Below, in pieces: positions 946-63,797 of a stretch of 64,000 bases of DNA. The stretch covers positions 1-64,000 of the forward strand of contig JAICQQ010000008.1 in NCBI GenBank assembly GCA_025937785.1. The letters run 5' to 3'. The DNA comes from Polyangiaceae bacterium (GTDB taxonomy: Bacteria; Myxococcota_A; Polyangia; Polyangiales; Polyangiaceae). Numbering within the stretch: position 1 is the stretch's first letter; every line of letters begins with the position of its first letter. The translations under genes and the position numbers were made by a program. The notes under the pieces are model-generated. The model had not been told where the DNA came from, searched no databases, and was given only the letters and a program-made list of their open reading frames with translations.

Positions 946-3867
<2,922 letters not shown>

Positions 3868-39124: not shown

Positions 39125-39691
39125 TCAGGGCGCGCAAAATGCTGGCCCCCCCGCCAGCGGACAATCGCACGCCTCCGCGCCTCCACCGGCGCAGATGCCG
39201 ACCGGGGACGCTGGGCAGTCGGGGAAACCGTCCATCGTGAGCTCGTAGATTGCATTGGAGCAATAGCCGAAAGCGCAATCCCGCGGCGCGTCGCACGGAC
39301 AGCCAGGGGCGCGCGAGAGGGGGTTGCAGTCCGCGTACTGTGAGGCGCAAGTCGCTTCACAGGCGGCCGCGGTCGCGAAGTTGTTGTCGTTCCCTCCGCA
39401 ACCTCCGTACACGAACTGTTCGCATTCGAGCGTGCCGGGATTGAAGGCCCAGCGTTCGACGTACGCCTGACAAGATCCAGTCTCCGCGGGCATGAGGCAT
39501 GTCGGCAAGGCCGCTTGCGCCTTGCCGGTGCTGCCGCCGGTCGTCCCCCCTGCCGCCGTGCCGCCGCTGCCGCCGCTGCCGCCGCTGCCGCCGGTCGTGA
39601 TCTCGCTGTCGCTCCCAGGAGACGTCGTTTCCGAGCGGCCCGCGCAACCGACCCCACAAACGAGGGCAACCACCAACCACGAGCGCTGCAT
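39125..39691 (-). CDS. Kunitz/BPTI-domain lipoprotein
   Basis: Lipobox LVCGVGC, GGSGGSGGSGG linker, then CLMPAETGSCQAYVERWAFNPGTLECEQFVYGGCGGNDNNFATAAACEATC (six-Cys Kunitz pattern), followed by a further Cys-rich segment. Confidence 0.85.
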   Translation of the reverse strand: MQRSWLVVALVCGVGCAGRSETTSPGSDSEITTGGSGGSGGSGGTAAGGTTGGSTGKAQAALPTCLMPAETGSCQAYVERWAFNPGTLECEQFVYGGCGGNDNNFATAAACEATCASQYADCNPLSRAPGCPCDAPRDCAFGYCSNAIYELTMDGFPDCPASPVGICAGGGAEACDCPLAGGPAFCAP

Positions 39692-51389: not shown

Positions 51390-54300
51390 ATGCAGGTCCA
51401 CCGCAGCCATCGGATGGAGCGGCTGGTCGACGTGCTGGCAGAGGTCGTGCGCGCACCAGTGGGTGACGCGCTCGAGCCAGAGACCATCCTGATTCAAAGC
51501 AAAGGCATGGAGCGCTGGTTGTCCAATCAACTGGCGCTGCGGCATGGCGTGTTCGCCAACGCGCGCTTCCCGTTCCCACGCGGCTTCATCGACGAGGTCT
51601 TCGATGCCGTAGTCCCGGATCTCGAGCCCGCGGCGGGCTCGGCCACCTACAGCCGCGAGGTGCTGACGTTCGCCATCCTCACGCTGTTGCCCGGGCTGTT
51701 GGCAGACCCGGCATTCGCACCGCTCCACGGCTATCTCGAGGACGACGCCGAGGCCGTCAAGCGAGTCGAACTCGCCGAACGCATTGCCCACGTCTTCGAC
51801 CAGTACCTGGTGTACCGCCCGCGCTTGCTGCTCAAGTGGGAGAAAGGTCAGGGCGCGGACTGGCAAGCCAAGTTGTGGCGAGCACTTCGCAAACACCTGG
51901 GCGGCCAGCACTTCGCCAGCCGCGCGCAACGCTTCTTCCAAGAATGGTCACCGCTGCTCGTGGCGCCGGGTGTGCTCCCCCGGCGCGTGAGCATCGTGGG
52001 CGTGAGCGCGCTGCCACCGATTTACCTCAAGATCCTCGATCGCATTTCCGAGCGCTGCGACATCCAGCTGTTCCTGCTCAGTCCCTCGCCCGAGTACTTC
52101 GCGCAACTGCGCAGTCTGCGCGAGGTGGGGCGCGGACGCAAAGGCCCCGCCGAACTCGCCTTCGACGATCCTGCCTTCGACGATTTTCAGGGTAATCCGC
52201 TGCTCGCATCGTTCGGGCGCACGGGTCGCGAGTTCCAGTTCACCCTGGAACGCGACACACTCTACCGCGAAACCGAGCGAGACCTGTTCGCCAGCGAGCC
52301 CGGCGCGACCCTGCTCGAGGTGTTGCAGCAAGACATCGTGGCGCTCCACGACCGCAGCGGGCCCGATGCCGTCAAACACGAGCTCGCCGCCGGCGACCGC
52401 TCGTTGCAGGTGGTGAGCTGCCACAGCCCCATGCGCGAAGTAGAGGTCTTGCGCGATCAGCTGCTCGGCATGCTCGACGACGACCCCACGCTGGAGCCCG
52501 GCGACATCCTGGTGATGAGCCCCAATATCGAGGCTTACGCGCCGTTGATCGATGCCGTCTTCGGAGTCGACCCGCGCGATCCGTTGCAAATCCCGTATCG
52601 CATCACCGACAAGAGCGAACGCGCCAGCAATCTCTACGCCAAAGCCCTGCTCCAGCTGCTGGCGGTGGTGTCCGGACGGGTCACCGCCAGCGAGGTGCTC
52701 GACCTGTTGCAGCAGGGTCCCGTGCAGCGGCAGCTCGGCATCGATGCTTCCGAGGTCCCTGATCTCGGGCTCTTGATTCATCAGGCGGGGATCCGCTGGG
52801 GCATCGACGCCACGCATCGCGAGCGCTTCGCTCAGCCAGCGCGAGCCAAGAACACCTGGCGCTTCGGACTCGAACGACTGCTGCTCGGCGTTGCGCTGCC
52901 GGCCGACGGTGACACGCTGTTCGCAGGCGCGGCCCCCGCCGAAGACGTCGAGGGCGACAGCGCGGCGCTGGTCGGCAAGTTGGCCGCGCTGCTCGAGACA
53001 CTGACCTGGGCGTGTGCAGAGGTCGTGCGCCAGCGGAGCGTAGCGGATTGGGTCGGCTTCGTGCGCGAGCTTTGCCGCCGCGCGCTCGCCATCGAGGACC
53101 GCGAGGCTTGGCAAGAGCGCGCAGTGTTCGAGCTGACGCAAGCGCTGGCCGAGAGCGCTGCGCGAGCGGGCTTCCACGAAGCCATCTCGCTCGCTCCCAT
53201 CGTCGATCGGCTCACCGCACACTTCGAAACCGAACGCGTGAGCCACCAGTTCTTGGCGGGAGGCATCACCTTCTGCGCCCTGCTCCCGATGCGATCGATT
53301 CCCTTTCGCGTCATCGCACTTCTGGGCATGAACGACGGCGAGTTCCCGCGCACGCAAACGGCGCTCAGCTTCGATCTCATGGCCGAAGACCCGGAACCTG
53401 GAGATCGCTCGCTCAAGGACGAAGATCGCTATCTCTTTCTCGAAGCGATTCTGTCGGCGCGGCAGTGCTTGCTCGTCAGCTACGTCGGGCGGGGCGTGCA
53501 AGACAACGCCGAGCTGCCGCCGTCACCCGTCGTTTCCGAACTGGTCGACTACGCCACCGCCGCATTTCTACGGAACGGCACGCGTGTGAACCTGGTGACG
53601 GAGCACCCGCTGCAGCCGTTCAATCCGCACTACTTCAGGCCTGATTCCGCGCCGTTGTTCAGCTTCTCGAGCGCCGACGCCCGAGGGGCGGAAGCTCTGA
53701 GCCGCTACCGGAGCGCCCCAGAACCGTTCCTGCAGGCGCCCCTGAACCCCATCGAGCAGCGCGCGAGCGTCGATCTCGAAGAACTGATCCGCTTCTACCA
53801 GAACCCCGCCCGGGGCTTTCTACAGAACCGACTGGGCGTATTCTTGGAGGGTGATCCGCGCCTGGTCGAAGATCGGGAACCGATCGAGCTCGACCCCCTC
53901 GAACAGCACGAGCTCGGGATGCTGCTGCTCGACCGCGCCTTGAAGGAGCCTGACGACACGTCGCTGCAGGCGTTCGTGGAGGCGACCGGGGTACTGCCGG
54001 ACGGCACGGTCGGGTCGCTTCTGTACCAAGACACCTGGCGCGCGGTACGCCACATCGCCGACCGGGCTCGCCCCTGGCTCGTCGGACCTAGAAAAAAGCC
54101 GCACCCAGTGTCGGTCGATTGCAACGGCACGCGCGTCACCGGGCACCTCAGGCAGCTGTACGCGAGCGCTCAGCTTTACTGGCAATACGCGCGCGTGAAG
54201 CCGAAGAACGAGCTCGCCCTGTGGCTGCGTCACCTGGCGTGGATGGCCGGCATCCGCAGTTCCGGTGTCCCCAGCGCAGGTCACCCCGGCGTCTGCAGCG

Positions 54301-54722
54301 TGCTCGTGGGCAGACGCCTGGAAGAGGCGTTGCCCGGCAGCGCCACCTGCGTCTTCGATCCGCTGCCGAGCGCCGAGGCACGAGCCGAGCTCGCCGAGCT
54401 AGTGGCCCTCTACCACGTCGGACACGAAACGCCGCTCCCGCTGTTTCCCGCTGCTTCGAAGGTGTACGTCGAGCAGCTCCTGAGCGCCAACGGGAACGCC
54501 GATGCCACGAAGGCCTTGACCAAGGCCCGGGACGAGTTCCTGCCCAGCTACGGGGCCGCCTTCTCCGAGGGCAGCGACCCATACGTGGTGCGCGCCTTCC
54601 AGGGCACCGATCCGCTAGCGAGCGCTGCGGGTATGCTCCAAACCCGCGTAGACTTCAGCTCGGCGAGCCTCCGAGTCTTCGAACCGATGTTGAAGAGCCG
54701 CCGCAGCGAGGTGAACGCATGA
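51390..54722 (+). CDS. recC: Exodeoxyribonuclease V gamma subunit
   Basis: MERLVDVLAEVVRAPVGDALEPETILIQSKGMERWLSNQLALRHGVFANARFPFPRGFID; FLLSPSPEYF; LGMNDGEFPR; upstream of recB and recD. Confidence 0.95.
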   Translation: MQVHRSHRMERLVDVLAEVVRAPVGDALEPETILIQSKGMERWLSNQLALRHGVFANARFPFPRGFIDEVFDAVVPDLEPAAGSATYSREVLTFAILTLLPGLLADPAFAPLHGYLEDDAEAVKRVELAERIAHVFDQYLVYRPRLLLKWEKGQGADWQAKLWRALRKHLGGQHFASRAQRFFQEWSPLLVAPGVLPRRVSIVGVSALPPIYLKILDRISERCDIQLFLLSPSPEYFAQLRSLREVGRGRKGPAELAFDDPAFDDFQGNPLLASFGRTGREFQFTLERDTLYRETERDLFASEPGATLLEVLQQDIVALHDRSGPDAVKHELAAGDRSLQVVSCHSPMREVEVLRDQLLGMLDDDPTLEPGDILVMSPNIEAYAPLIDAVFGVDPRDPLQIPYRITDKSERASNLYAKALLQLLAVVSGRVTASEVLDLLQQGPVQRQLGIDASEVPDLGLLIHQAGIRWGIDATHRERFAQPARAKNTWRFGLERLLLGVALPADGDTLFAGAAPAEDVEGDSAALVGKLAALLETLTWACAEVVRQRSVADWVGFVRELCRRALAIEDREAWQERAVFELTQALAESAARAGFHEAISLAPIVDRLTAHFETERVSHQFLAGGITFCALLPMRSIPFRVIALLGMNDGEFPRTQTALSFDLMAEDPEPGDRSLKDEDRYLFLEAILSARQCLLVSYVGRGVQDNAELPPSPVVSELVDYATAAFLRNGTRVNLVTEHPLQPFNPHYFRPDSAPLFSFSSADARGAEALSRYRSAPEPFLQAPLNPIEQRASVDLEELIRFYQNPARGFLQNRLGVFLEGDPRLVEDREPIELDPLEQHELGMLLLDRALKEPDDTSLQAFVEATGVLPDGTVGSLLYQDTWRAVRHIADRARPWLVGPRKKPHPVSVDCNGTRVTGHLRQLYASAQLYWQYARVKPKNELALWLRHLAWMAGIRSSGVPSAGHPGVCSVLVGRRLEEALPGSATCVFDPLPSAEARAELAELVALYHVGHETPLPLFPAASKVYVEQLLSANGNADATKALTKARDEFLPSYGAAFSEGSDPYVVRAFQGTDPLASAAGMLQTRVDFSSASLRVFEPMLKSRRSEVNA

Positions 54723-57700
54723 AGCCGCTCGACCCACTCGCGCTGCCGCTGAGCGGCGTTCACCTGATCGAGGCCAGCGCGGGCACGGGCAAGACCTACA
54801 CGATCACGTCCCTGTTCCTGCGGCTGCTCCTGGAACGCCAGCTGACGCTGGACCAGATCGTGGTGGTGACCTTCACGAAAGCGGCGACCGCAGAGCTATC
54901 ACACCGGATCCGCGCGCGCTTGCGCGAGGCTCTCTCTGTGCTCGACGAACAGCACGTGCTCGACGAACAGCACGTGCTCGACGAACAGCACGCGCTCGAC
55001 GAACAGCAGCTCGACGAACAGCGGCTGCTCGACGAACAGCAGGCACCCGACGCTGGCGCCTCCGGCCGGACCCTGGACCCCGCGCTGGTGGAGATCTTGG
55101 CGCGCTGCTCGAACAAGACCGCTGCACGGCGCCAGCTCGTGAGCTCCCTGCAGCAGATGGACCAGGCCAGTATCTTCACGATTCACGGGTTCTGCCAGCG
55201 CATGCTGCTCGAGTACGCCTTCGAAAGCAGGATTTGCTTCGACGTCGACCTGGTGATCGACCAGCGCCCGCTGATTCAACAGATCGTGCAAGATTTCTGG
55301 GCGAAAGAGGTCACGGTCCTCGACGAGGCCCGCGTCCGCTTCTTACAGCGCACGGGTACCGGGCTCAGCGATTTCGTCTCACTCGCCTTCGCCGCGATCC
55401 AATGGCCTGACATGCCGTTGGTGGACGCACCCGCGGAACTCGACACCGGGGCAGCGCTCGAGCGCTACCTGATGACTCGCAGTCAGGCTCAGGCGATCTG
55501 GCACAAGTCGGGGGAAGAAGTGCGCCAGATGCTCTTGGGAACCACGGCGTTGAACCGGCGTTCGTACAAGCCGGAGACGCTCGAACGCTGGTTCGACGAT
55601 CTCGATGAGTTGTTCCGTACCGACGGGCGCAGCATGCACAACTTCACCGACGCGGTGCAGCGCCTCAGCCGCTCGACCCTCGCGGAGTTCACGAATTCGG
55701 GCAGGCCCACGCCGGAGCACAGATTCTTCGAAGCCTGCGAATGGCTGTGTGCGGCGCATGCCCAAGCCTCCGCAGCCTTCGACCACTGGCTCACGCATTT
55801 CAAGGGGCGCCTGGTCGCCTATGCCCGCAGCGAGGCCCGGCGTCGCAAGCTCGAGGGGCGCCTGGTGTCGTTCGACGACCTCCTGCAAAAAATGTCCGAG
55901 GCGCTCGCCGGCCCTCAGGGCGAAGTGCTCGCCAAACGCATCCGCAAGAAGTATCCGGCAGCGCTGATCGACGAGTTCCAGGACACCGACCCGATTCAGT
56001 ATGCGGTGTTTTCCAGGATCTACGGCAAGCAGCAGAGCTCGCTATTTCTGATCGGCGATCCGAAGCAGGCGATCTATGCCTTTCGCGGCGCTGACATTTT
56101 CGCCTATCTGAGGGCCGCCGCCGACGCGGGCGCGAACACCTGGACCCTGGCCACCAACTACCGGTCTGACGTGTCGTTGGTCCGGGCACTCAATGCGCTA
56201 TTTCGGCGACCCTGGCGCCCCTTTCTGCTCGACGGCATCTCGTACGTCGAGGTCGCGCCGCGACCGGGGGCCAGCGACGCCTTGCACCAGCCGGGCGTAC
56301 CGGACTCACAGCGGCGGCTCGAGGTTCTCTTCCTCGAGCGGTCGACGCTGGGTATCGGGCAGCGCGCCATCAGCCGGCGCTTCAGCGAGCAGTCCCTCCC
56401 CGACTGGGTCGCAGCGGACATCGCTCGGTTGCTCGCGAGCGGTGCCACCATCGGCGATGAACCGATTCGACCCAACGACATAGCCATCCTGACGCGGACG
56501 AACCAGCAGGCCCACGAAATGGGGCACGCCCTCCGGCGCTTGAGGATTCCCAGCGCGCTGATCGGCGACACCAGCGTCTTCGACAGCAAAGAGTCGACCG
56601 AAATGCGGCTCTTGCTGCGAGCCATGGCGGACCCCCAGAGCGGCGGCGCGCTGCGAAGCGCGCTCTGCACACCCTCGATGGGCGTCAGCGCCGCCGAGCT
56701 CGCCGAACTCGCGAGCAACGAGGCGGGCTGGGAGCATTGGGTGGACGCGTTCCGCCGCCTGCACGAGCTCTGGGAGACCCGCGGCTTCGTCCACGCGATG
56801 CAGACGCTGATGCGCGAACGCGAGGTGAGCGCACGTGCGCTCGCCCTGCTCGACGGCGAGCGTCGCATGACCAACCTGCGCCATCTTACCGAGCTCTTGC
56901 ACCAGGCCGAATCGGACCAACACCTCGGGGTGAGCGGGCTTTCGTCGTGGTTCGACGAGGTCGTCTTCAACCCTGCCGCACGTGAAGGTTTGGCGCCCGA
57001 CACGCTGCAGATCCGGCTCGAAAGCGACGACCACGCCGTGCGCTTGACGACGATGCACAAGAGCAAGGGCCTCGAGTACCCCATCGTCTACTGCCCTTAC
57101 CTCTGGCGCGACGCCAGCCTCTTCAAGCAAGAAACCAAGCACCTCAAGGTGCACGACGACGATGGCTCGCACCAACTCAGGCTCGATCTGCGCCCGGTCG
57201 AGGCCAAGACGGCAGCGCTGGCCGCAGCCCAGCGTGAGGCGCTCGCCGAACATCTCCGGCTGGCGTACGTGGCGCTCACCCGCGCGAAGCACCGGACCGT
57301 CGTGGTCTGGGGCGCCTTCGGTCACGCCGAGAACTCTCCGCTCGGTTACCTGTTGTATCAAGCCGCGGGTGAGCTGGGGGCGCTGTCGGAAACTCCCGCG
57401 GGCCGCGTCGCCAAGATGACGGACAGCGAGCTCTTGCGTGGCCTCGCAGAGCTGGAGAAGAGCTCCGAGGGCGCCATCTCGGTGCGACCGCTCGAGCCGG
57501 AACCCGCTCCGCCATACCTGAAAGAAGCCGCTGAGGTAGAGCGGTTCGCCGCGCGACCGCTGACCCGAGTCATCGATCGCAGCCAACGAACCACGAGCTT
57601 TTCGCAGCTCACGCAGCACCACGCGCGCGAAACCCTGGTGGCGAGCCTTGGCAAAGACGTCGACGACGTGCTGCCGCAGATCCCCCCGAACTCGGCCGAA

Positions 57701-58564
57701 CCGCTCGGTGAGCCGGTCGCGCTCGCAGAGTTTCCGAAGGGAGCCCGCACTGGTGAGCTGCTTCACGCCATCCTCGAGCACGCGGATTTCACGAGCCCGG
57801 CCTCGCTCGAGGCACAGGTGACCGTCGAACTGCAGCGCTACGGCTTGGCGGCGGACGAGTGGTCGAACATGGTGTTAAGTGCGCTCTCGAACGTGCTCGC
57901 GACCCGCCTTTCGAGCACGTCCGAGCTCGAGCTTTCGAAGCTGACACCGAGGCAGCGCGTGAGCGAAATGGAGTTCACGCTGCCGCTCGGGGCGCAGCGA
58001 GGCTCGCGCGCTCGGGGGGCGCTCTTGAGCGCCGCCCGCTTGGCGTCCGTATTCGAACACCACGCGCCGGAGCTCGGCTCCGCTTACCTCGAACGCGTCA
58101 AAAGCCTGGGGTTCAGCCCGCTTTCCGGCTTCATGCGCGGCTTCATCGACCTCGTCTTCGAGTACGACGGCCGATTCTTCGTGGTGGACTACAAGTCGAA
58201 TCATCTCGGCGCGCATGCCTCGGACTACGCGCCCGCGTTGCTCCGGGCGCCCATGGCAGAGCACCACTACTACTTGCAGTATCACCTCTACGTGACGGCG
58301 CTGCACCGTCACCTCGGCGCGCGGCGCCCGGGCTACGACTACGATCGCGACTTTGGCGGGGTGTACTACTTGTTCCTGCGCGGCATGGCGCCCCAGCATC
58401 CCAGCGGGAGTGGCGTGTTCTTCGATCGCCCGGCGCGCGGGCTGATCGAAGCGCTGTCGGCGCTGTTCGAAGCCGAGCCAGAGGCCGAGACACGCGCGGC
58501 CGCCGCCTCGAACACCGCAGCCTCGTCCGAAACCATGAGCTTCACGCCGGGGGGCCTCGCATGA
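54719..58564 (+). CDS. recB: Exodeoxyribonuclease V beta subunit, with an in-frame DEQ-rich repeat insertion
   Basis: MKPLDPLALPLSGVHLIEASAGTGKTYTITSLFLRLLL; VVVTFTKAATAELSHRIRARL; LIDEFQDTDPIQYAVF; LIGDPKQAIYAFRGADIFAYL; TMHKSKGLEYPIVYCPYLW; nuclease FFVVDYKSNHLG. Start overlaps recC stop. Confidence 0.97.
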   Translation: MKPLDPLALPLSGVHLIEASAGTGKTYTITSLFLRLLLERQLTLDQIVVVTFTKAATAELSHRIRARLREALSVLDEQHVLDEQHVLDEQHALDEQQLDEQRLLDEQQAPDAGASGRTLDPALVEILARCSNKTAARRQLVSSLQQMDQASIFTIHGFCQRMLLEYAFESRICFDVDLVIDQRPLIQQIVQDFWAKEVTVLDEARVRFLQRTGTGLSDFVSLAFAAIQWPDMPLVDAPAELDTGAALERYLMTRSQAQAIWHKSGEEVRQMLLGTTALNRRSYKPETLERWFDDLDELFRTDGRSMHNFTDAVQRLSRSTLAEFTNSGRPTPEHRFFEACEWLCAAHAQASAAFDHWLTHFKGRLVAYARSEARRRKLEGRLVSFDDLLQKMSEALAGPQGEVLAKRIRKKYPAALIDEFQDTDPIQYAVFSRIYGKQQSSLFLIGDPKQAIYAFRGADIFAYLRAAADAGANTWTLATNYRSDVSLVRALNALFRRPWRPFLLDGISYVEVAPRPGASDALHQPGVPDSQRRLEVLFLERSTLGIGQRAISRRFSEQSLPDWVAADIARLLASGATIGDEPIRPNDIAILTRTNQQAHEMGHALRRLRIPSALIGDTSVFDSKESTEMRLLLRAMADPQSGGALRSALCTPSMGVSAAELAELASNEAGWEHWVDAFRRLHELWETRGFVHAMQTLMREREVSARALALLDGERRMTNLRHLTELLHQAESDQHLGVSGLSSWFDEVVFNPAAREGLAPDTLQIRLESDDHAVRLTTMHKSKGLEYPIVYCPYLWRDASLFKQETKHLKVHDDDGSHQLRLDLRPVEAKTAALAAAQREALAEHLRLAYVALTRAKHRTVVVWGAFGHAENSPLGYLLYQAAGELGALSETPAGRVAKMTDSELLRGLAELEKSSEGAISVRPLEPEPAPPYLKEAAEVERFAARPLTRVIDRSQRTTSFSQLTQHHARETLVASLGKDVDDVLPQIPPNSAEPLGEPVALAEFPKGARTGELLHAILEHADFTSPASLEAQVTVELQRYGLAADEWSNMVLSALSNVLATRLSSTSELELSKLTPRQRVSEMEFTLPLGAQRGSRARGALLSAARLASVFEHHAPELGSAYLERVKSLGFSPLSGFMRGFIDLVFEYDGRFFVVDYKSNHLGAHASDYAPALLRAPMAEHHYYLQYHLYVTALHRHLGARRPGYDYDRDFGGVYYLFLRGMAPQHPSGSGVFFDRPARGLIEALSALFEAEPEAETRAAAASNTAASSETMSFTPGGLA
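54938..55042 (+). repeat. 18-bp (one 15-bp unit) tandem repeat inside recB encoding VLDEQH-type units
   Basis: gtgctcgacgaacagcac x3 (54938, 54956, 54974), gcgctcgacgaacagcag (54992), ctcgacgaacagcgg (55010), ctgctcgacgaacagcag (55025-55042). Confidence 0.97.
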
Positions 58565-60405
58565 CTGCCGCGCTCGCCTCGCTGTGGAAAGCCGGCATTC
58601 TGAGTGAGCTCGACTACCAGTTTTCCTCCGGCGTGGCGCGTCTCGCCGGCGAGACGAACCTGGACGTGCTGATGGGGCTCGCGCTGGCTAGTCGCCAGAC
58701 CGCAGCGGGGCACGTGTGCGTCGATCTCGCCGTCTTCGCCGGCGCGCCCGGCACTACCGAGACGGGCGACCCCGCCGAGCTCGCTTTCCACTGGCCCGAC
58801 CTCGAGCGCTGGGCCGAGAGCCTGCAACAGAGCCCGCTAGTGTCGCGCGGCGACGCACGCGCGCCGCTCGTGCTCGATCAGCATCGGCGTCTGTACCTAT
58901 ACCGCTACTGGGAGCACGAGCGGCGCATCGCCGAGCTCTTGCGCCAACGTCTAGGCCTCGCCTCCGAGCCGATCGATCGCGCCCTCTTGCGCGACGGCCT
59001 GCGGCGGTTGTTCGAGCCGATGGGCTCGGCGGACACACAACGGGACGCTGCGTTGCTCGCGCTGACCGAGCGCACCTGCACGATCGTCGGCGGTCCAGGC
59101 ACCGGCAAGACCTCGACCGTGGCGAGGATCCTGGCCCTGCTCACCGAGCAGTCGCTGGCGCAGCGTGGTGCCGGCCTCGAATGCCTCTTGTTGGCGCCCA
59201 CGGGCAAAGCGGCGGCCCGCTTGGCCGACGCGATCAAGGCCGCCAAGGGCCGGCTGGCGTGCGCACCGGAGGTGCTGCAGGCGATCCCCGAAGAAGCGTC
59301 CACGATTCATCGGGCGCTAGGCAGCCGGCGCGGCTCCGTCACACGCTTCTATCACGACCAGGAGACGCCGCTGATCGCCGACCTAGTGCTGGTCGACGAG
59401 GCGTCGATGGTGGACGTCGCCCTCATGCGGCGCCTGCTCGAAGCAGTGCCGCCGGCCGCGCGCTTGGTCTTGCTCGGCGACCGTCACCAACTCGCGTCCG
59501 TCGAGGCAGGCTCGGTGCTCGCGGACATCTGCGGCGGCGAGCGACAGCCCGGCTACGCCACCCCGCTCGTAGCGCGCGTGGCCGAGCTTTCGGGGTTCGA
59601 GCTGCCTAGCCGCGGCGCCATGGATTTCCGCATCACCGACAGCGTCATCGAACTCACCAAAAGTTATCGGTTCAGCACCGATAGCCCGATCGCCACGTTC
59701 GCCAGCGCGGTGAACGGGGGCGAGGCCGCGCTTGCGGTGAGCGTGCTCGTCGCCGGTGCAGAAGGCAGCGCGCTGCGGCTCGAGAGCGTCGCCGACACCG
59801 ATGATCTGTTGCGGCGGTTGGAGCGTCACGTGGTGGCACGGCTCAGGTCGCACGCCGACTCACGCGACCCCGCCGTCGCGCTCCGCCGGCTCGATGAGTT
59901 TCGCGTGCTCTGCGCCCACAAGAAGGGCCCGCTCGGCGTCGAGAACGTGAACCAACGACTCGAAGCTGCTCTCGAGCACGCCGGCATCATCCAGGGCGGA
60001 GCTCGCTGGTACCCCGGACGACCGGTGCTCGTCACCGCCAACGACCACCAACTCAAGCTTTACAACGGTGACGTGGGGCTGGTCGCGCGGACGCGCGAGG
60101 GGGCCTTACGCGTGTTCTTTCCCGGCGGCGGCGGCGAGCTGCGCTCGCTGTCACCATCACAGTTGCCACCGCACGAAACCGTGTATGCCATGAGCATTCA
60201 CAAAAGCCAGGGCTCCGAGTTCAAGGAGGTGGCGATCGTGCTGCCCCGGCCCGAATCGCCCTTGCTCACCCGCGAGCTCCTGTACACCGCCGTGACCCGG
60301 GCGCGCGAACGCGCGGTGTTGTACGGCGATCCCGAGAGCGTGCGAGCGGCGGCGAAGAATCCCGTCGCCCGCGCTTCGGGGCTGGCTGCGTTGCTTCACG
60401 GCTGA
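58561..60405 (+). CDS. recD: Exodeoxyribonuclease V alpha subunit
   Basis: MTAALASLWKAGILSELDYQFSSGVARL; RTCTIVGGPGTGKTSTVARILALL; LVLVDEASMVDVALMRRLL; HETVYAMSIHKSQGSEFKEVAIVLP. ATGA overlap with recB. Confidence 0.96.
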   Translation: MTAALASLWKAGILSELDYQFSSGVARLAGETNLDVLMGLALASRQTAAGHVCVDLAVFAGAPGTTETGDPAELAFHWPDLERWAESLQQSPLVSRGDARAPLVLDQHRRLYLYRYWEHERRIAELLRQRLGLASEPIDRALLRDGLRRLFEPMGSADTQRDAALLALTERTCTIVGGPGTGKTSTVARILALLTEQSLAQRGAGLECLLLAPTGKAAARLADAIKAAKGRLACAPEVLQAIPEEASTIHRALGSRRGSVTRFYHDQETPLIADLVLVDEASMVDVALMRRLLEAVPPAARLVLLGDRHQLASVEAGSVLADICGGERQPGYATPLVARVAELSGFELPSRGAMDFRITDSVIELTKSYRFSTDSPIATFASAVNGGEAALAVSVLVAGAEGSALRLESVADTDDLLRRLERHVVARLRSHADSRDPAVALRRLDEFRVLCAHKKGPLGVENVNQRLEAALEHAGIIQGGARWYPGRPVLVTANDHQLKLYNGDVGLVARTREGALRVFFPGGGGELRSLSPSQLPPHETVYAMSIHKSQGSEFKEVAIVLPRPESPLLTRELLYTAVTRARERAVLYGDPESVRAAAKNPVARASGLAALLHG

Positions 60406-60503
60406 ACTGGGCCTCGGGCGACGAAAAAGCCGCCTACCCCGGCCCCGCCTGATACCGTAGCTTGTGTGTCGATGGATCGGCGTAGCCTGCGAGCGCTCGA
60501 ACG

Positions 60504-61544
60504 ATGAACTTGGAAATCTTGATCGGTTCCATCGTCCGCCAAACGACGGTGTTGATCGCCCAGCTGGCCACTTCCGGCGGCGCACGTGCGCCCCTGGCTC
60601 ATATTGCGAACCAGGTGTTCAGTGACCTGGCGCGAGAGCTCGAGCGGCAGGGCTTGAGCCGCGTCGTCACGGCGGATCTGTTCGGGATCTCGCTGCGCTC
60701 CTACCAGCGCAAAATGATCCGCCTGCGTGAGAGCTCCAGCGACCGGGGTCGGTCGATGTGGGACGCCGTGCTGCAGTACCTCGTGTCGCGCGGCGTGACG
60801 ACGCGTGCGGAGGTGCTGGAGCGGTTCAATCGCGACCCTGAGCCCATCGTGCGCGGCCTCTTGAGCGATCTGGTCCAGAGCGGGTTCGTCTTTTCGTCCG
60901 GATCGGGGGCCCACACGCTCTACCGAGCCACCAGCGAAGACGAGCTGACGGCCGTGCGCCAGAGCCAGGCCGCGCGCGGTCTCGACGAGTTCGTGTGGGC
61001 AGTCGTGTACCGGCACGGCCCGCTCGCTGGTGAGCGGCTGAGCGAGCTAGTCGCTGTCGACGACGAACAACTGGCCACCGTGCTCGAACGGCTGTGCCAG
61101 AACGGCCGAGTCACGGCGAACAGCGAGGGCGGTGTCACGCGCTATTCGAGCCAGGGGTTGTTCCTGCAACAGGGTGCCGGCGTCGGCTGGGAAGCGAGCA
61201 TCTACGACCACTTCCTGGCCCTGGTGCGGACCATCTGCAGCCGGCTGGAGGATGCGCCCGATGCGCGCGAGTACGCGCCGTACACGGGCGGCTCCACCTA
61301 TAGCTTCGACGTAGGACCGGGACACCCGATGCGGGAGGAAGTGCTGAGCACGCTGGCTCGGTTTCGCGAGCGTGCTAGCGACCTTCGGCAACGTGTCATG
61401 GCTCACAACGACGCGCACGGACCACCCGAAACGGTCGAGCGCGTCGTGGCCTACGCTGGACAATCGGTGATTCGCCAATTCGACGAGGCCCTCGAGCGGG
61501 AGAGGGCGGACAAGGAAAATGGAGAACCAGATGAAAGCTCTTAA
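60504..61544 (+). CDS. Winged-helix/HTH protein of unknown function (resembles DUF6502-type myxobacterial proteins; family tentative)
   Basis: LVTADLFGISLRSYQRKMIRLRES-like HTH (read as LSRVVTADLFGISLRSYQRKMIRLRES), then winged-helix-like repeats VLERFNRDPEPIVRGLLSDLVQSGFVFSSG and LSELVAVDDEQLATVLERLCQNGRVTA. Confidence 0.5.
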   Translation: MNLEILIGSIVRQTTVLIAQLATSGGARAPLAHIANQVFSDLARELERQGLSRVVTADLFGISLRSYQRKMIRLRESSSDRGRSMWDAVLQYLVSRGVTTRAEVLERFNRDPEPIVRGLLSDLVQSGFVFSSGSGAHTLYRATSEDELTAVRQSQAARGLDEFVWAVVYRHGPLAGERLSELVAVDDEQLATVLERLCQNGRVTANSEGGVTRYSSQGLFLQQGAGVGWEASIYDHFLALVRTICSRLEDAPDAREYAPYTGGSTYSFDVGPGHPMREEVLSTLARFRERASDLRQRVMAHNDAHGPPETVERVVAYAGQSVIRQFDEALERERADKENGEPDESS

Positions 61545-62781
61545 AACTTGGGTTCTGTGGGCGGGACTCATCGTGGCGGCTTGTGGCGGCGCCTCCTCGA
61601 GCGGCTCGTCCAACAGCGAAACGCACTTCCTCGGACTCTGCAGCGGCGATGACTGCGGAGACGGGCTCAGCTGCATCTGCGGGGTGTGCACGGTGACGTG
61701 CGACCCTGCCGCCAGCTGCGGCGCGCTGAACGCGAACGCCATCTGCGCCTCGTCGAGCTCGAGTTCATGCGGCGACGACACGGCTCCGTCGGTCTGCGAC
61801 GTCGACTGCGACCGCGACGGCGACTGCGCCTCCCTCGGGGCGGGCTTCGAGTGTCAGGCCGGTGTTTGCCGGCAGCCGGGTTGTGTGGCCGAAGGGCGCG
61901 TCTACGAAGAGGGCGCGACGTTCGAGGTGGACTGCAACACCTGCACCTGCGGCTCCGACGGTGAGGTGGCATGCACTCGAGCGGCTTGTGTCGACACCTG
62001 CGAGTACGACGGCAACACCTACGACATCGGCGAAGAGTTCTCGGCCACCGATGGCTGCAACACTTGCACGTGTTCCGTTGACGGCGTGCTGTGCACCGAG
62101 ATCGGATGCGGCGGCAACACCTGCGAGTACGACGGCAACACCTACGACATCGGCGAAGAGTTCCCCTCCTACGACGGCTGCAACACTTGCGGCTGCACCG
62201 CGGACGGCGTGGTCTGTACCGACGCCGCCTGCGTGGACGGCTGCACCATCGACGGGATACACTACGATCTCGGCGAGAATTTTCTTGCCGACGACGGTTG
62301 CAACACCTGCAGCTGCGGCGAAGACGGCGTGACCTGCACCGCCGTCGGCTGCCACGGCGTGAGGTGCGTGTACGACAACACGATCTATGACATCGGCGAG
62401 GAATTTCCTGCGGCGGACGGGTGCAATACCTGCGCTTGTACGGCGGACGGTGTGGCTTGCACCGACGCAGCTTGCGCCGGGTGCCAAGTGGGTGACCGCT
62501 TCTACGAGTACGGTGACAGGTTTCTTGCCGACGACGGTTGCAACACCTGCTCTTGCGAAGAGGACGGTGCCGGTTGCAGCCAGGGTGACTGCTCGAAACC
62601 CGAATGCATGATGCCCTTCGAAGCGGGCGAGTGCCTGGCGTTCGTGCCCGTCTTCTACTACGACGCCCAGGCGGCCCGGTGTCTCGAGCAGACGTACGGC
62701 GGCTGTGGGGGCAACGACAACCGCTTCGAAACGCTCGAGGCGTGCCAGCAGCGGTGCCAGGAGTTCGACAACGGCGATTGA
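61531..62781 (+). CDS. Cys-rich lipoprotein with six pacifastin/VWC-like modules and a C-terminal Kunitz/BPTI domain
   Basis: Signal/lipobox MKALKTWVLWAGLIVAAC. Six modules of the form C-x16-18-CNTCxC-xxDGxxC(T/S)xxxC. C-terminal CMMPFEAGECLAFVPVFYYDAQAARCLEQTYGGCGGNDNRFETLEACQQRC. Confidence 0.85.
   Translation: MKALKTWVLWAGLIVAACGGASSSGSSNSETHFLGLCSGDDCGDGLSCICGVCTVTCDPAASCGALNANAICASSSSSSCGDDTAPSVCDVDCDRDGDCASLGAGFECQAGVCRQPGCVAEGRVYEEGATFEVDCNTCTCGSDGEVACTRAACVDTCEYDGNTYDIGEEFSATDGCNTCTCSVDGVLCTEIGCGGNTCEYDGNTYDIGEEFPSYDGCNTCGCTADGVVCTDAACVDGCTIDGIHYDLGENFLADDGCNTCSCGEDGVTCTAVGCHGVRCVYDNTIYDIGEEFPAADGCNTCACTADGVACTDAACAGCQVGDRFYEYGDRFLADDGCNTCSCEEDGAGCSQGDCSKPECMMPFEAGECLAFVPVFYYDAQAARCLEQTYGGCGGNDNRFETLEACQQRCQEFDNGD
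61994..62580 (+). repeat. ~120-bp tandem domain repeat within the inhibitor-like gene
   Basis: 47-nt identical segment acacctgcgagtacgacggcaacacctacgacatcggcgaagagttc at 61994 and 62117 (123-bp spacing). tttcttgccgacgacggttgcaacacctgc identical at 62281 and 62521. Confidence 0.9.
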
Positions 62782-62798: not shown

Positions 62799-63797
62799 TC
62801 AGTCCCCCGTGCTCGGCGCCTCGAACTTCGGGAGCGAACGCGGGTCACAGCCGGCGCGAAATCCCTCCGCCGAAAACTCCACGCTCGCGCTGCCCGAACG
62901 CTCGTCGTCGGGAGCGCCCGCGCGCACTTCGAGCCGCAATAAGCGGGTGCCGCCACGCGCGGGTGAGCAGTACGAGAGCAGGTAGCCCTGACGCGAGTGA
63001 CGAACCACGGCGTGCCCCGCTTCTTCGAACGCCAGGGACACCGTGTCGGCTCCCACCGCGTCGAAGTAGCCGTCCTTGGCGAAGGCTTCGACGGCGTGGC
63101 TTTGCTCGCCGTAGCCGATGGCGAGCACGCGGTGGCGGGTGCTGCCGAGCCAGTCGTGCACACTGCCCTCGTCCGTGCGTCCCGCGAGGTCGGCCCCGGC
63201 CGCAAATACGACCAGCGTACCGATCCCCAAGGGCTTGCCGCTCTGTTGCAGCAGGCGGTCGAGCTCCGCGCCAGCCAGCAGCACCGCGCCGTTCAGGTTG
63301 CGCGAAACATCGCGCGGCTTCAAACGGGTCTGCGGGAGCACCGTGGCGCTGGGTTCGTTCACACGCGGGAACACGCTGACCGGTGTCAACCGAGTGCCGC
63401 CGTCGTAGGCATACACGGCCACGGCCTGTGTCTCGGTGACTTCTTCGGCGAACGCAGCGATCGCGTTCGCCAGTTCCGCGCGCACCCCGGCATCGGTCGC
63501 GAGGCTGTTGTCGACCAACAGCAGTGTGTGCCGGTGCACCACCTTGTCTGGGTCGAGCAGCGTTTGCCGCGTGATAGAGGAGTGGAGCTCGTGCCCGTCT
63601 TCGGACAGCGTGAAGTTCTCGGCGCTGAGCCGCGACTCGTCGTCGGACGCCACGTTCACGAACACGGCCACGTTCGCGGGAGGCCGCGTGGCGACCGCGT
63701 GCACGTCTGCTTCGAGCCCACCGAGGCCGGCGCAGCCCGCGAACGTACTCGCGAGCAGACAGCAAAGGCTCCATCTCGAGATCGCCGACCAGGGCAC
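62799..63797 (-). CDS. VWA-like domain lipoprotein
   Basis: LLASTFAGCAGL lipobox; HRHTLLLVDNSLATDAGVRAELANAIAAFAEEV; NLNGAVLLAGAELDRLL; GTLVVFAAGADLAGRT. Confidence 0.7.
   Translation of the reverse strand: MPWSAISRWSLCCLLASTFAGCAGLGGLEADVHAVATRPPANVAVFVNVASDDESRLSAENFTLSEDGHELHSSITRQTLLDPDKVVHRHTLLLVDNSLATDAGVRAELANAIAAFAEEVTETQAVAVYAYDGGTRLTPVSVFPRVNEPSATVLPQTRLKPRDVSRNLNGAVLLAGAELDRLLQQSGKPLGIGTLVVFAAGADLAGRTDEGSVHDWLGSTRHRVLAIGYGEQSHAVEAFAKDGYFDAVGADTVSLAFEEAGHAVVRHSRQGYLLSYCSPARGGTRLLRLEVRAGAPDDERSGSASVEFSAEGFRAGCDPRSLPKFEAPSTGD

Follow-up and report, generated by a model that had tools for sequence, protein, structure and literature searches.

The gene at 61531-62781 of the analysed window (64,000 nucleotides of a Polyangiaceae bacterium, assembly GCA_025937785.1, contig JAICQQ010000008.1) is the variable half of a multi-copy, probably autoregulated regulator-lipoprotein cassette. 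In this family, a winged-helix regulator gene is followed by a lipoprotein gene whose product has a constant N-terminal domain and a variable C-terminal part, here named the payload. The best explanation for the window, which we hold to be moderately probable, is that of an autoregulated two-gene cassette (60416-62781) displaying a multi-headed, substrate-like serine-protease inhibitor.

The lipoprotein gene and its domains

The frame 61531-62781 (+) was open without any stop, encoding 416 aa with 57 Cys, in agreement with the coordinates given in the earlier note. A GGAG motif was found 7-10 nt 5′ of the start, with another possible ATG at 61519. The lipoprotein signal proposed in that note was recovered by regular expression only, as a VAAC lipobox ending in Cys18, while the two short Cys-rich segments described there turned out to be a single conserved domain of ~85 aa (residues 28-113), which is common to about 100 other lipoproteins according to the alignment (Table 1). 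In the Pfam search, the whole protein matched VWC (6.5e-20), Pacifastin_I (9.1e-19) and Kunitz (6.7e-15), each above its curated cut-off and thus far beyond chance, with six stretches each for VWC and Pacifastin_I, and residues 359-410 for Kunitz. All three profiles, whose joint absence had been named beforehand as grounds for abandoning the domain assignment, were therefore present. NCBIfam gave no family name for this protein, and a first contig scan with the single lipoprotein as query returned no matches. Moreover, eukaryotic contamination was considered and rejected, since the gene overlaps a bacterial regulator gene, its third-position GC is 0.82 and the regulator family appears in about 20% of the relatives.

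Regarding the surroundings, two long ORFs lie upstream (54119-60405, +), which resemble RecB- and RecD-type helicases by eye, and a convergent ORF follows (62799-63797, −), predicted to be lipoprotein-like and with no Pfam match over the cut-off.

Table 1. Features of the cassette in the window, and one related lipoprotein (positions in its own locus)
Feature	Position	Strand	Basis or remark
Operator-like palindrome, GGGCGACGAAAAAGCCGCCT	60416..60435	.	Best motif match; 98-bp gap upstream of the regulator
Winged-helix regulator gene, 346 aa	60504..61544	+	MarR/TrmB/Penicillinase_R-like, no curated family
Lipoprotein gene, 416 aa	61531..62781	+	Shares the last 14 bases of the regulator gene
Signal peptide and lipobox, predicted acylated Cys18	61531..61584	+	Pattern match
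Constant N-terminal Cys domain, residues 28-114, SETHFLxxC...CICGVCTxxC...	61612..61872	+	Alignment and genome hits
Module 1, residues 118-153, P1 = Arg	61882..61989	+	Pacifastin_I 9e-11, over cut-off
Module 2, residues 157-193, P1 = Glu	61999..62109	+	Cys pattern, Pfam
Module 3, residues 198-234, P1 = Asp	62122..62232	+	Cys pattern, Pfam; AlphaFold2 pLDDT 93.8
Module 4, residues 238-274, P1 = Ala	62242..62352	+	Cys pattern, Pfam
Module 5, residues 279-315, P1 = Asp	62365..62475	+	Cys pattern, Pfam
Module 6, residues 318-354, P1 = Gln, P2 = Ser	62482..62592	+	Cys pattern, Pfam
Kunitz/BPTI domain, residues 359-409, P1 = Leu369, P1′ = Ala370	62605..62757	+	Pfam, Cys spacing
L185 cassette lipoprotein, seven Cys5-less modules, P1 A, M, M, L, E, K, D	1306-3015	+

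VWC/pacifastin-type modules

The Cys pattern that had been proposed for all six modules was exact in five of them, as module 1 is one residue longer between Cys4 and Cys5 and has only 16 residues in the Cys1-Cys2 loop, compared to 18 in modules 2-6; the P1 series R, E, D, A, D, Q was the same as read before. When searched singly, the modules matched Pacifastin_I as well as VWC over its first two thirds, with only module 1 passing the cut-offs (PF05375, 41.8 vs. 27.9 bits). None of the six has the Cys1-Cys2 loop of 9-12 residues of classical pacifastins, and the two subdomains and ten Cys of VWC are not found either, as the profile reached position 42 out of 57 and each module has six Cys. Among the features of the 'ancestral' pacifastin-like class, the six-Cys core, a loop of 16-18 residues and an N-terminal beta-hairpin (predicted strands 2-5 and 8-11) were found; for this class, PMC13388995 gives the disulfides as Cys1-4, 2-6 and 3-5.

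In the window, Asn follows Cys2 in the six modules, and Thr follows Cys5 in five, with Ser in module 6. For a total of 390 modules in 107 ORFs, Asn after Cys2 appeared in 377, a count partly built in, as the search patterns contained Asn, and Thr or Ser after Cys5 (P2) appeared in 374, where Thr was absent from the patterns, yet ORFs were kept only with at least one Thr/Ser module. The most frequent P1 residue was E (125), followed by K (73), L (57), A (29), Q (24), T (18), D (16) and R (15), while P1′ was mostly K, M, I or R beside the variable P1. Thus, P1 was acidic in 141 modules (36%), and acidic or amide in 176 (45%).

The diversified specificity suggested in the earlier note is consistent with this variety of P1 residues. 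However, the entropy of P1 was 2.87 bits, compared to 3.2-3.7 bits at several other surface positions of the module, so the diversity alone is no evidence of inhibition or of diversifying selection, and P1 hypervariability was rejected as a proof of inhibition. On the other hand, the seven modules of the cassette relative L185 have lost Cys5 and have a new Cys before DGC, yet T-P1-P1′ was kept in them, which suggests that the Thr-P1 loop is maintained for its own sake.

Kunitz domains

The Cys spacing of the Kunitz domain in the window (8-15-7-12-3) is identical to that of BPTI, and the loop features of active Kunitz inhibitors (Gly12, Ala/Gly16 and Gly36-Gly37) are present in AGECLAF and YGGC. 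The P1 position is Leu369, as had been anticipated. A total of 36 bacterial Kunitz domains were found in the loci L001-L296, of which 20 (56%) had an acidic P1 (Asp 16, Glu 4) and nine had Arg/Lys, the usual residues at P1 of animal Kunitz domains. The acidic P1 residues, regarded as unusual for trypsin-like targets in the earlier note, are therefore no oddity of this protein, as they follow a trend of both inhibitor folds in these bacteria (141 of 390 modules and 20 of 36 Kunitz domains), and the targets may not be trypsin-like.

A second Kunitz lipoprotein was found in the window at 39344-39547 (−), in a frame of 189 aa with Gln at P1 (Kunitz, 2.1e-20), which is not adjacent to any cassette-family regulator. 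The source genome contains two more Kunitz genes (C135 and C361).

Fold of a single module

Module 3 was modelled with AlphaFold2 using 103 sequences, resulting in five strands with a pLDDT of 93.8, while the full-length lipoprotein gave a poor model (pLDDT 61.9). The Foldseek search with the module model returned no match at E 0.001 or better. The nearest structures by TM-score were VWF E-modules (0.78), the VWC domain of collagen IIA (0.72) and FnI, and pacifastins, which are shorter, had TM-scores of about 0.5-0.57 (0.5-0.66 by target length). As modelled, this fold would be common to inhibitor and adhesion modules, and the fold alone cannot decide the function.

Pairing of regulators and lipoproteins

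The regulator in the window matched Penicillinase_R in Pfam (2.3e-5; 25.2 vs. a cut-off of 22.6), followed by TrmB, which fell short (24.9 vs. 25.6). Among the members of the regulator family, the best match varied among TrmB, MarR, Penicillinase_R and other winged-helix models, MarR structures were matched weakly, and most members had no curated match in Pfam or NCBIfam. The family was found in 19 of the 97 relatives searched, with up to 21 copies scored per genome, and a later count gave 33 copies in one relative and nine in the source genome. Furthermore, its occurrence in the phylum was patchy (35 out of 379 genomes).

A model of the constant domain found 105 copies in 12 genomes, 89 of which were directly behind a regulator gene; conversely, 85 of the 110 full-length regulators in these genomes had a constant-domain match right behind them, adjacency being worked out from the search tables. 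In the source genome, with nine regulators, this was the case for all eight constant-domain copies. The gene had been treated as a stand-alone one in the earlier note, which is contradicted by these pairings. Moreover, 100 regulator loci were collected, 98 with a readable downstream gene, which was a predicted lipoprotein or signal-peptide protein in 89. Overlaps of 4-26 bp between both genes were common, many being of −4, −8 or −11 bp. The downstream proteins mostly begin with G-[SG]-[EQ]-[TS]-[HN]-[FW]-L-x2-C, and 13 positions of the constant domain were invariant in the alignment of 23 sequences. Among the background loci (L073-L151), only L103 and L146 had the constant domain, and both are members of the cassette family. 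In the closest relative (L172), a regulator 60% identical to that of the window was likewise paired with a lipoprotein carrying pacifastin and Kunitz domains.

A search 3′ of the lipoprotein for a third conserved gene, such as one for immunity or a receptor, found none, the largest cluster comprising four loci. A reading as anti-phage defence was also tried and gave no PADLOC match.

An operator-like palindrome upstream of the regulators

Simple k-mer enrichment upstream of the regulator genes was weak, so a palindromic EM model was needed, which was applied to the 150 bp upstream of 101 regulator genes. The resulting motif was a 20-bp dyad (gGTGaCaa..ttGtCACc) with a log-likelihood of 224, compared to 41-57 for shuffled sequences, although coding control windows of the same loci also reached 125-150. 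The symmetry still emerged without the palindrome constraint. Strong sites were found in 70 out of 101 upstream regions and in 39 out of 480 control windows, and the position was −50 to −95 in 68 of 79 sites. The dyad partners showed compensatory changes, the pair 4/17 being complementary in 65 of 79 sites (38 expected; T-A 45, G-C 11 and C-G 9), and the pair 7/14 in 58 of 79 (40 expected). With the source genome excluded from training, the sites of its nine copies gave a Fisher combined p of 5.5e-7, to which the site in the window contributed only p = 0.024 when taken alone. Its counterpart in L172 is GGGCGACGAAAATGTCGCCT. The operator-like site is enriched before the regulators, which would be expected to bind it.

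Variable payloads behind the constant domain

A total of 80 payloads fell into 48 sequence clusters. Pfam matches among 83 partners included Pacifastin (4), Kunitz (3) and Kazal (2), in addition to S74, Recep_L, RCC1, LRR and VWA, and the enzyme-type matches were xylanase-like, PHB depolymerase, endo-1,6-glucanase-like and pectate lyase; these names rest on profile matches, some of them weak. One cluster of the xylanase-like or enzyme type, with nine members, was conserved between genomes. A payload of ~555 aa with weak matches to glycoside hydrolase 30 and xylanase XynC was seen across several genomes (loci L171, L238, L243, L245, L252, L253, L254, L260 and L261).

Distribution and company of the modules

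Pacifastin_I matches were found in 70 of 145 relatives and in 70 out of a phylum-wide sample of 379 genomes, with none in 14 control genomes, and Kunitz matches in 27 of the 145 relatives. From a scan of named genomes (188 relatives), 79 loci were kept, mostly from Myxococcota (Polyangium, Sorangium, Minicystis and MAGs), while a few came from Patescibacteria and Woesearchaeota and from a single 'Nitrospirae' and a single Caldisericia MAG. The modules are therefore not confined to Myxococcota and reach archaeal MAGs, the loci from Patescibacteria and Woesearchaeota MAGs being L121, L126, L127, L130, L134, L135, L147, L149 and L151.

Out of 107 module proteins, 17 also had Kazal_1 and two had Kunitz. 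By pattern, Kazal appeared in 20 of 78 module ORFs and in none of 161 other Cys-rich ORFs from the same flanks (L073-L151), a comparison set that includes many spurious frames; with 25 other lipoprotein-like Cys-rich ORFs as the comparison, the difference was maintained (0 of 25, p = 0.003).

Proposed mechanism and alternative explanations

According to the preferred explanation, the regulator would bind the dyad just upstream of its own gene, near the promoter, and so control its own transcript. The overlap of both genes points to one shared transcript, from which the lipoprotein would be expressed, with its synthesis coupled through the overlap. The constant N-terminal Cys domain would present the variable payload outside the cell, in this case a seven-headed array with P1 residues R, E, D, A, D, Q and L. 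Each module would offer a loop C-T-P1-P1′-x-C, and the Kunitz domain GEC-L-AF, as substrate-like (canonical) loops occupying the active sites of extracellular serine proteases. The acidic P1 residues suggest that part of the array may be aimed at Glu/Asp-specific proteases.

The multi-headed inhibitor proposed in the earlier note stands as the best functional reading of the payload in the window, a reading favoured by how often related proteins also have Kazal and Kunitz domains. We infer inhibition from these accompanying domains, the loop signature and the Kunitz geometry, which make such a function likely, while the fold does not decide it. Several observations count against it: the module model was nearer to VWF E-modules, VWC and FnI (TM 0.7-0.78) than to pacifastins (TM 0.5-0.57), P1 is not hypervariable compared to other surface positions, enzymes of the trypsin, chymotrypsin or elastase type would hardly be expected to accept an acidic P1, and most of the other cassette payloads are not inhibitors. 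Alternatively, the modules could be structural or adhesive, VWC/FnI-like units contacting, for example, the matrix, the prey surface or other cells, with a non-inhibitory binding Kunitz domain such as some animal ones. The best structural matches (VWF E-modules, collagen IIA VWC and fibronectin type I), a whole-protein VWC score as good as that of Pacifastin, the share of acidic P1 (36% among the modules, 56% among the bacterial Kunitz domains) and the binding folds LRR and Recep_L among the other payloads would all suit adhesion. However, VWC was covered only at positions 1-42 out of 57, the second subdomain with the last four Cys being absent, Asn after Cys2 and Thr at P2 are nearly invariant, with Thr persisting in the Cys5-less modules of L185, and the domains accompanying the modules, Kazal and Kunitz, are both inhibitor folds. 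This alternative is considered rather unlikely.

Two other explanations were judged improbable. A lipoprotein with inhibitor domains could act, as pictured in the earlier note, as a stand-alone surface shield of a predator against its own or prey enzymes, unrelated to the upstream gene, and many Polyangia are indeed predators or saprophytes; nevertheless, the pairing with a regulator was conserved over about 100 loci, which argues that the lipoprotein gene is not stand-alone and leaves this explanation with little probability. Slightly less probable still is a system of surface variation or kin recognition, in which the payloads would be recognition tags with secondary biochemical activity. 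The many scattered paralogues per genome, the constant N-terminus with highly variable C-termini and the patchy distribution (35 out of 379 genomes) would be expected of it, but payloads resembling conserved enzymes (xylanase-like, PHB depolymerase and pectate lyase), including the cluster of nine conserved between genomes, suit activity rather than tags, and no conserved immunity or receptor gene was found downstream.

Taken more widely, the cassettes could belong to a so far undescribed surface-display system that Myxococcota carry in many copies, on a 'constant domain / variable payload' plan, with a regulator and a diverged operator for each copy, payloads comprising inhibitors, hydrolases and binding folds, and a multi-headed inhibitor directed in part against Glu/Asp-specific proteases as the payload in the window; we consider this broader proposal possible, a little short of probable. 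For a bacterial inhibitor of animal type, the cassette offers several points of access: besides the regulator and its candidate operator, there are the constant domain and some 100 parallel copies whose payloads differ. Should the operators diverge along with the regulators, the set would also serve as a natural experiment on the separation of paralogous regulators. Furthermore, P1 tends to be acidic in two folds unrelated to each other (pacifastin-type and Kunitz), which points to the Glu/Asp-specific proteases as a testable class of targets.

Comparison with known systems

Rodriguez-Aguilar et al. (2026, PMC13388995) have already described pacifastin-like domains from Myxobacteria and CPR bacteria, so their presence itself is not new. 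The cassette context is new to us as far as a limited literature search shows: no description of it was found in that search, which covered few subscription journals and is therefore weak evidence of novelty, nor was any tested function of animal-type protease inhibitors in bacteria found in the literature searched.

The regulators resemble the one-component regulators MarR, TrmB and Penicillinase_R in their winged-helix match, their dyad-symmetric upstream site and their position in their own operon, but differ from them in being about 346 aa long, with an N-terminal part that is conserved and helix-turn-helix-like and a C-terminal part belonging to no known family. The Kunitz domain shares with its nearest PDB structures (SmCI, boophilin and ShPI-1) the G-x-C-P1-A loop, YGGC and the conserved N and F. 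Unlike Kunitz/BPTI inhibitors, it is bacterial, lipoprotein-borne and fused to pacifastin-type modules, and its P1 is Leu, in contrast to its relatives, which mostly have Asp/Glu. As for VWC (PF00093), the modules share the first half (C-x-Y-x-G-x-x-Y-x-x-G-E-x-F) and the fold, but lack the second subdomain, and with it the last four Cys, and have the pacifastin CNTC and CT signature.

With arthropod pacifastins (PMP-C, SGCI; MEROPS I19), the modules share C-N-x-C-x-C and the C-T-P1-P1′-x-C loop, with P1′ often K/M. In contrast to the classical consensus C-x9-12-C-N-x-C-x-C-x2-3-G-x3-6-C-T-x3-C (PMC2689174), their Cys1-Cys2 loop has 16-18 residues, and the C4-C5 loop is one residue short in five modules. 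Moreover, acidic or amide P1 residues account for 45% of the modules (176 of 390) and for 13% of metazoan pacifastins (PMC2689174); according to the same source, what an acidic P1 does in pacifastins is not known.

Finally, the 'ancestral' class of PMC13388995 agrees with the modules in the six-Cys core, a Cys1-Cys2 loop of 13-20 residues, the N-terminal hairpin, a reactive site two residues after Cys5, the occurrence in Myxobacteria and the multi-domain company, including Kunitz and Kazal. That study reports 24 bacterial proteins and no archaeal ones, with the ±5 neighbouring genes examined only for eukaryotic contamination; in the sections consulted, neither a cassette with a regulator nor a constant domain of lipoproteins nor an operator is mentioned. 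Here, such a cassette, a constant domain and an operator-like site were found, the modules were far more numerous (390 in 107 ORFs) and archaeal MAGs were among their carriers.
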